Assembly: GCA_003021785.1 (NCBI GenBank)
Contig: PXQU01000016.1
Coordinates: forward strand, 460,407 to 524,406
Source: Halobacteriales archaeon QH_7_65_31
GTDB lineage: Archaea > Halobacteriota > Halobacteria > Halobacteriales > Haloarculaceae
Direction of reading: 5' to 3'
Length of the DNA: 64,000 nucleotides
The translations under genes were made by a program, and so were the position numbers. The first letter of the stretch is position 1; every line of letters starts with the position of its first letter. A model generated the notes under the pieces. It had not been told where the DNA came from. It did not search any database and saw only the letters and a program-made list of their open reading frames with translations. Shown piece by piece: positions 28,507 through 30,745 of the stretch.

Positions 28507-28516
28507 GTCGCGTGGG

Positions 28517-28522
28517 TTTAAA
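28517..28522 (+). promoter_or_regulatory. TATA box ahead of the upstream TnpB-type hairpin
   Basis: TTTAAA lies 12 nt before the long hairpin; its centre is about 27 nt before the start of the inner stem (28544-28553). It may promote a structured transcript leading to tnpB. Confidence 0.4.
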
Positions 28523-28533
28523 GAAGCGGTGCA

Positions 28534-28614
28534 GGGCGCTAAGTCCCCATCCTCAAGGAGCACCGCAGGGAGCAAAGCGACCGAGGAGCGCAGTAGGGTG
28601 GGGATACAGCGCCC
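28534..28614 (+). other. Long hairpin resembling the TnpB 3' (omegaRNA-type) element, upstream of tnpB
   Basis: GGGCGCT (28534-28540) pairs with AGCGCCC (28608-28614). Inside it, TCCCCATCCT (28544-28553) pairs with AGGGTGGGGA (28595-28604) with one wobble pair. The loop begins CAAGGAGC. The block shares CCTCAAGGAGC and AGTAGG with the terminal hairpin at 29831-29873 in the same orientation. It is either the element's left end or the remnant right end of another element. Confidence 0.6.
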
Positions 28615-28671
28615 GTCATCGTCATCCAAACGCTTACAAATCGCCAGCATTAAAGCCGATTCGTAGCTCCG

Positions 28672-29876
28672 ATGCGGTACGCCTACAGATACCGGCTGTC
28701 GCCCACTCCCACCGTTGAGCGGGAGCTTCACCGCCACATCGACATCTGTAGGCAAGCGTACAACCACTTCCTGCACGAGCTTCGAGGAGCGGACGAGTAC
28801 CTGTCGCGGTACGAGATGCAGTCGATGCTCCCTAATATGAAGAAGTGGTGGGACGACCTCTCGGACGTGTATTCCAAGGTTCTCCAGATGGTCGCCAAGC
28901 GCCTTTCGGCTACAACGTCGGGGAGCTACGGTGGAAGTCGCCTACGGAGTACCGGAGTCTCACCTACAACCAGTCCGGCTTCGACGTGGACAAAAACACG
29001 GGCCGCGACGGGTGGGGTGAACTCCACCTCTCCAAAATCGGGACCGTCCCGATTCGCCTCCACCGCGACATCCCCGAGAACGCCACGGTCAAGCAGGTGG
29101 CTGTCAAAAAGGAAAAGACCGGCAAGTGGTACGCCACCGTCGCGGTCGAGTTTGGCCAAGAGCCGCCGGCCAAACCGAACGACCCGGAGCGCGTCGTGGG
29201 CATCGACGCTGGCATCATCAAGCAGACCCACGATACCGATGGTGTGGCTGTCAAGCCCCCGGACCTCTCGGACGAGCGCAACCGTCTCGAACGTGAGCAA
29301 CGGAACCTCTCACGGAAGGAACACGGGTCGAACAACTGGAACAAGCAACGGCAGACGGTCGCCCGCCGCTACGCCGACCTCAAGCGGAAGCGGCGCGACT
29401 TTCTCCACAAGCTCTCGGCGTACTACGCCCGGGAGTACAACCTCGTGGCGGTCGAGGACCTCGACGCGAAGGGGTTGATGGAGGAGCCGGGCAACAGCCG
29501 AAGTCGCGCCTCGGCGGCGTGGGCGATGTTCAAGCGGCTTCTGGAATACAAGTGCGAACGCGAGGGAACGCACTTCGTGGCGGTCGAACCCGCTGGCACG
29601 ACCAAAGAGTGCGCTTCGTGTGGCGTCTCGACGGACAAGCCGCTGTGGGTACGGGAGCACTCCTGTCCTGCCTGCGGATTCGAGGCGGACAGAGACGCGA
29701 ACGCGGCGTGGAACGTTCTTTCTCGCGGGCTCAACCAAGTAGGAGCGGGACGCTCCGAATCGACGCCCCCGGAGACTGCGCTCCCTGCGGACACGGTAGT
29801 GTCTGCAAAGCGCGTCATCGAACGGGGAAGCCCCTGCCTCAAGGAGCCGCCAACGGCGGCGAGTAGGCAGGGGTAA
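28672..29876 (+). pseudogene. tnpB: IS1341-type (IS605 group) TnpB RNA-guided nuclease, frameshifted
   Basis: The reading frame is broken. The first frame reads MRYAYRYRLSPTPTVERELH and runs to MVAKRL at about 28905. The rest (GYNVGELRWKSPTEY onward) is in another frame to the TAA at 29874. Compared with family members, about a dozen residues appear missing at the junction, so a deletion whose length is not a multiple of three is likely. The RuvC residues remain (GIDAG, VEDLDAKG, DRDANAAW), as does the zinc ribbon CASCG/CPACG. No tnpA is present. A functional full-length protein is unlikely. Confidence 0.88.
29831..29873 (+). ncRNA. Right-end hairpin of the TnpB element, candidate omegaRNA 3' end
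   Basis: CCCCTGCCT (29831-29839) pairs perfectly with AGGCAGGGG (29865-29873), with an inner GCCGCC/GGCGGC stem. It overlaps the 3' end of tnpB, as do sense-overlapping RNAs known for haloarchaeal IS1341 elements and omegaRNAs of TnpB. The guide would follow 29873. Transcription is inferred. Confidence 0.6.
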
Positions 29877-29908
29877 GATTCACCCGTGAACGAACTGTAC
29901 AACTCGGT

Positions 29909-30745
29909 ATGAGACGCGTCCCGTTCGGTATCCGTCGGCTCGACACCACCATCGGTGGCGGTGCGCCGGGCGGTAGTCTGGTGTTGCTCTCCGGGGAGGC
30001 CGGGGCCGGCGCACGGGAGTTCATGTACACCGCGGCGATGATGAACGCGCTTCAGGCGACCGACGAGGAGCTGTTCGATCTCTACTACGGTGACCTGCCC
30101 GACGGGACCGAGCCGGTTCCGAACGTGCACTACGTCTCCTTCACCGCCGAGAAGCCGCGGCTCCGCCGCGAGATGGACTTCGTCCTCGACGAGGAGATCA
30201 CCGAGACGGCGATCGAGAACGTCACCTTTCACGATCTCTCGGGCGAGTACTTCCGGGTCTCGCCGATCCCCCGCGACTGGTACGCCGACCGAACCGGGAG
30301 CATCACGAGTCTTGGCGACGAGGGGGAGCGTTCGACCGTTCCCGAGGCGCTCGGTGACGTGTTATCGGACCACGCCACGGAGAGTCTGGTCATCATCGAC
30401 TCGTTGACCGATCTCATCAGCGCGACCGGGGAGGACATGACGTGGACGGACATCCCGAAGCTCGTGAAGGGGATCACCAGAGCGACCTACGAGTGGGGCG
30501 GGCTGGTGCTCGTACTCCTCAACCACGAGACGCTGTCGGGTGAGCGCCACGGCCAGCTGATCGACGCCGCGGACGGCTCGTTCATGTTCGAGTGGGAGTC
30601 GGGCGGCTCCACCCGCGCACGGACGCTCGTCGTCCGGCAGTTCCGCGGTGTCCTCTCGGCGATCGAGGACGAGGATATCGTCCAGTTCGAGACGGAGATC
30701 GGCGATGCCGGCTTCGATATCAGCGACGTGCGGAAGATCCGATGA
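29909..30745 (+). CDS. HTR-like RecA/KaiC-fold ATPase homologue with degenerate Walker A
   Basis: 278 residues of the RecA/KaiC fold: MRRVPFGIRRLDTTIGGGAPGG opens it, and Walker B is SLVIIDSLTDL. The Walker A region reads GEAGAGAREF, where the Lys-Thr pair is replaced by Ala-Arg, so nucleotide hydrolysis may be lost. Such HTR-like proteins are common in haloarchaea with no assigned role. It begins 33 nt after the tnpB stop, so its promoter lies next to or within the element. Confidence 0.75.
   Translation: MRRVPFGIRRLDTTIGGGAPGGSLVLLSGEAGAGAREFMYTAAMMNALQATDEELFDLYYGDLPDGTEPVPNVHYVSFTAEKPRLRREMDFVLDEEITETAIENVTFHDLSGEYFRVSPIPRDWYADRTGSITSLGDEGERSTVPEALGDVLSDHATESLVIIDSLTDLISATGEDMTWTDIPKLVKGITRATYEWGGLVLVLLNHETLSGERHGQLIDAADGSFMFEWESGGSTRARTLVVRQFRGVLSAIEDEDIVQFETEIGDAGFDISDVRKIR

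Follow-up and report, generated by a model that had tools for sequence, protein, structure and literature searches.

The question raised by this locus is what the hairpin upstream of a broken tnpB gene is, since a second hairpin at the far end of the gene matches it in the same orientation. An earlier note had described both hairpins, with their shared CCTCAAGGAGC and AGTAGG, around the broken tnpB, and the coordinates, the match, the folding and the break in the gene, which is a frameshift, are all confirmed here. It left three options for the upstream hairpin: an old right end, a left-end structure, or an independent guide-type RNA that outlived the nuclease. All coordinates given below are positions within the window, the whole 64,000-nt stretch of DNA analysed, and the element lies on its + strand. 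With very little doubt, positions 28522-29883 are one degenerate tnpB-only (IS1341-type) haloarchaeal copy of the IS200/IS605 family, in which the upstream hairpin is the left end (LE), the downstream hairpin is the right end (RE), and a TnpA supplied in trans would use both.

Boundaries and classification

The element was delimited by comparison with empty sites in two genomes of the same genus. The insertion is 1362 bp long (28522-29883, + strand), stands directly 3' of TTTAA, has no target duplication, and holds both hairpins as a single insertion. The empty sites L100 (GGTTTAACCGTGGACGAACTG) and L101 (GGTTTATCAGTAGACGAACTG) are each flanked by relatives of the same two genes. The L100 junction reads GGTTTAA followed directly by CCGTGGACGAACTG, and the occupied site reads GGTTTAA, the element, then CCGTGAACGAACTG. 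The limits are placed at 28522 and 29883 because length and sequence fit cuts after TTTAA and after TTCAC. The TTCAC end is common to the closest relative, L019; TCAC is invariant in 42 aligned right ends, and TTCAC is found in nearly all of them. Insertion 3' of TTTAA without target duplication is the IS200/IS605 mode. The element shows a fixed short 5' target, no terminal inverted repeats, and subterminal hairpins at both ends on the same strand, as in that family; it encodes a TnpB with OrfB_IS605 and TNB domains, as IS1341-type elements do, though in frameshifted form. It is an ordinary degenerate member of an already known family.

The LE hairpin spans 28534-28614 (+ strand; model R1, 99.4 bits, E=1e-26; conserved pairs). 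Its outer stem pairs 28534-28540 with 28608-28614 and its main stem 28545-28554 with 28594-28603; the conserved parts are TCAAGGAGC and AGTAGG, with GATACAGCG on the 3' side. The RE hairpin, at 29831-29873 (+ strand; model R2, 55.8 bits, E=7e-10; RE alignment), overlaps the 3' end of tnpB and is followed by the tail TAAGATTCAC at 29874-29883 (+ strand), which ends in the terminus TTCAC (L019 comparison, empty site and RE alignment). The stretch CCCC[AT][TG]CCTCAAGGAGC occurs in both hairpins in the same orientation, at 28545-28561 and 29831-29847 (17 nt, 88% identical), as does AGTAGG. Against dinucleotide shuffles, folding gave z = -6.4 (upstream) and -4.6 (terminal) as RNA, and -3.7 and -4.5, respectively, as DNA.

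The tnpB gene is split between two frames: one, from 28672 on, encodes PF12323, and a second (28845-29876) encodes PF01385 and PF07282. Its 5' part (HTH_OrfB_IS605; PF12323 E=2e-12; L019 alignment) extends from 28672 to the deletion junction at 28906, and its 3' part (OrfB_IS605 and TNB domains; PF01385, PF07282, L019 alignment and motifs) from 28907 to 29876, both on the + strand. With L019 as reference, 37 nt are missing at about 28906/28907, and this deletion shifted the frame. The motifs GIDAGI, VEDL, DRDANA and both CxxC (RuvC and zinc-ribbon) are kept downstream of it. A search for an intact tnpB able to use RNAs from this locus found none of the matching subfamily in the assembly, which is 90.6% complete and could miss an intact copy. 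The only close copy in the assembly (contig C4, locus L004) has 69% identity and is itself frameshifted, by a palindromic insert; the other TnpBs are of different types, with no match or only about 28-33% identity. For TnpA, which the element does not encode, the same 90.6% complete assembly yielded only a remnant with two stops.

Conservation of the ends

The comparison drew on eighty haloarchaeal relatives of the TnpB, and 76 of their loci held enough upstream DNA to be tested for the LE. The covariance model R1, built from 46 of these loci with the other 30 not used in building, matches on the same strand upstream of tnpB in 76/76, and 71 of the matched relatives have a tnpB ORF of at least 395 aa. 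The pattern common to them is TTTA[ACG] .. GGCGCTAAG, CCCC..TCAAG, a variable inner part, AGTAGGG..GGGG, and ATACAGCG. The pairs of the LE hairpin are kept across the family, with some compensatory changes. The upstream hairpin is thus the ordinary LE of all testable relatives, and among the options of the earlier note it is the left-end structure that holds. In 40 genomes searched (own genome and relatives) the LE is present in 31.

The model R2 was built from family right ends without any left end. It nevertheless finds the upstream hairpin of the window at 28545-28607 (26.4 bits, E = 0.0025) and also matches the LE hairpins at most of the relatives' loci; similar hairpins at both ends are therefore the rule in the family.

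L019, with 83% protein identity, sits at a different insertion site and has an LE of the same kind, the same short distance from LE to tnpB, and an identical RE. Most relatives carry a segment between LE and tnpB that both L019 and the window element lack. In L004 (reverse strand) a short ORF, TTRKNISIRDDQEEWIQENHLSLSSFVQEKLDELIEERS, lies between LE and tnpB, directly before tnpB, and appears ribbon-helix-helix-like by eye. One relative, L046 (PUNE01000017.1), is filed under the bacterial Halobacteroidaceae and carries a typical haloarchaeal copy of the element; its contig is possibly misbinned.

Target site and the KaiC-like gene

The target pentamer TTTAA is host DNA at 28517-28521 (+ strand), as read from L100 and L101. 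Directly 5' of the LE, 71/76 relatives have NTTAN, 47 of these TTTAN, at a nearly constant distance; the spacer between target and LE is 12 nt in the window copy versus 8 nt in 58 of the 71. The earlier note had given the upstream hairpin its own TTTAAA box. Such a box is present at 28517-28522, but its first five bases are the target TTTAA and the sixth is the element's opening A, and it is not a promoter of the element, since TTTAA was already in the empty allele. In related genomes a TTTAA-like box stands in the same place, shortly before the KaiC-like gene (at 29909 in the window), and for this reason the pentamer most likely served this gene as its TATA box. With 1.36 kb of inserted DNA between the two, readthrough or a new promoter may now be needed for expression of the gene. 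A preference for landing in promoters was not found: the right flank has an ORF start within 60 nt in 23/75 relatives, versus 24/73 in the divergent left-flank control.

Alternative explanations

It is very unlikely that the upstream hairpin represents a guide-type RNA transcribed on its own, driven by TTTAAA and retained after the nuclease decayed. This reading would fit the strong RNA fold and the position of TTTAAA about 23-28 nt upstream of the LE main stem, which is the usual haloarchaeal distance from TATA box to start. However, relatives whose tnpB ORF is long (71 of the 76) have the same hairpin at their left edge, at unrelated sites, TTTAA is a target site that the empty allele also has, the DNA 3' of the LE is element and not a guide-bearing flank, and Rfam has no match in the window, either at the gathering threshold or at E up to 1. 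A guide-type RNA gene would be conserved apart from the element and have its own promoter; here the LE was found upstream of tnpB in every testable relative, and the box belongs to the host target. The idea of an RNA outliving its nuclease is accordingly unsupported, although transcription from the TTTAAA box into the LE is possible.

Even less credible is an origin of the hairpin as the old right end of a second, tandem element, a form of another option of the earlier note, despite the fact that LE and RE are alike enough to match each other's models. Host DNA stops 12 nt before the hairpin, where there is no 3' coding sequence of tnpB; on its other side the hairpin has GATACAGCG, which is of LE type, and not the GTTCAC tail of the RE; comparison with the empty site gives a single insertion with both hairpins in it; and the same LE is present in all relatives, at unrelated sites. 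The empty site excludes this origin unless the empty alleles arose by precise excision of two elements.

A chance match has next to no probability: such genomes have many short hairpins rich in G+C, and 17-nt matches at 82% occur elsewhere in the region, but it is refuted by the E values of the two models and by conservation of the hairpins across dozens of species, among which compensatory changes are seen.

Proposed mechanism

The reading as the two ends of one element would be explained by a single TnpA (Y1 HUH transposase), supplied in trans and binding both end hairpins as single-stranded DNA, as in IS608 and ISDra2. By the same analogy its cuts would fall beside the target pentamer TTTAA on the left side and directly behind TTCAC on the right, and its use of both ends would account for the similar same-strand hairpins. 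Binding of LE and RE hairpins by TnpA has been described (PMC6006769). For this element, TnpA binding, single-strand transposition and the omega-RNA are inferred from IS608 and ISDra2, and recognition of the ends by TnpA rests on analogy because the element encodes no TnpA and the assembly holds only a remnant. The element landed just 3' of TTTAA before the KaiC-like gene, and a TATA-like box of the host therefore adjoins its left end.

A guide RNA derived from the RE, together with a target-adjacent motif (TAM), is known from ISDra2 (PMC8612924), and haloarchaeal omega-RNAs arise from the right ends of tnpB (PMC12558985). The RE hairpin is accordingly the expected scaffold hairpin of an omega-RNA, with the right host flank as its putative guide, and TTTAA is predicted to be the TAM of the element's TnpB. 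From its position after the RE (PMC8612924), the predicted guide is the host flank CCGTGAACGAACTGTACAAC at 29884-29903 (+ strand); a search of the assembly with up to 3 mismatches allowed gave no second copy of its target. Fully Watson-Crick guide pairing of the bases 5' of each hairpin with the two cut sites (TAA/TTA and GAA/TTC, by eye) was considered and set aside as inconsistent in the GTCAC-ending subfamily. Because insertion is 3' of a TATA-like pentamer, the LE hairpin might in some copies be placed at a host transcription start, and an LE RNA with the omega-RNA scaffold core might then act as a guide-less decoy or regulator of TnpB; this is a highly improbable idea.

Comparison with known systems

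Haloarchaeal IS605-type elements have near-terminal palindromes, in some cases similar at both ends, and a 4-6 bp targeting sequence without target duplication; they are often disrupted, and their short derivatives are known as PATEs, palindrome-associated transposable elements (PMC3119063). Compared by family description and not by individual ISfinder entries, the element resembles ISNph5-22 and the ISHwa series (PMC3119063) in being tnpB-only, with end palindromes, a short 5' target, no duplication and frequent pseudogenes. It differs from other haloarchaeal IS605/IS1341-type elements by the 37-nt deletion in tnpB and, from most relatives, by the missing segment described above. ISDra2 of Deinococcus radiodurans and IS608 of Helicobacter pylori likewise have LE and RE palindromes and a short target retained at the left flank, but both carry tnpA; ISDra2 also has a TnpB with an RE-derived guide RNA, which is predicted for the window element, and its target is TTGAT instead of TTTAA (PMC8612924). 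The sotRNA/omega-RNA of Halobacterium salinarum (RF02656, RF02657) is comparable in that the right end of a tnpB of IS1341 type is the expected source of the RNA; RF02656 matches a different tnpB of this genome (L006), not the window. PATEs have the same kind of ends, whereas the window element retains most of tnpB.

A false lead is thereby settled, and one haloarchaeal tnpB element now has exact boundaries, a target and a predicted guide. Where similar hairpins flank a tnpB, transposon ends are the first reading to consider.

Other copies and palindromic units

In this genome, which was searched by pattern and by model, the LE model has five strong matches: the window, C4, C1, C13:159796 and C6:29884. 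On C1 (37274-37717, - strand; locus L133), a span of about 440 nt holds LE and RE and hardly any tnpB, and this copy is a miniature PATE-like derivative. At C13:159796-159858 (+ strand) and C6:29884-29944 (- strand) there are LE hairpins with no matching RE or tnpB seen; the one on C13 is directly followed by GTTCAC, normally the end of the RE. The copies on C1, C13 and C6 look like deletion relics or PATE-like remnants.

Short palindromic units, either single (about 55 nt) or doubled (about 112 nt), are found in or beside the end hairpins and sometimes within tnpB. Their core is TCGTTCGCACA[CT]CAGAA, and the stems vary while staying palindromic. They lie inside the LE in L019 (1942-2132), L026, L031, L056 and L094, near the RE in L066 and L082, and in L004 at 2790-2950 and within tnpB. 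The core is present in 13 of the 40 genomes searched, often adjoining an LE. The units are probably like the SMR-A repeats, which target these palindromes (PMC3119063).
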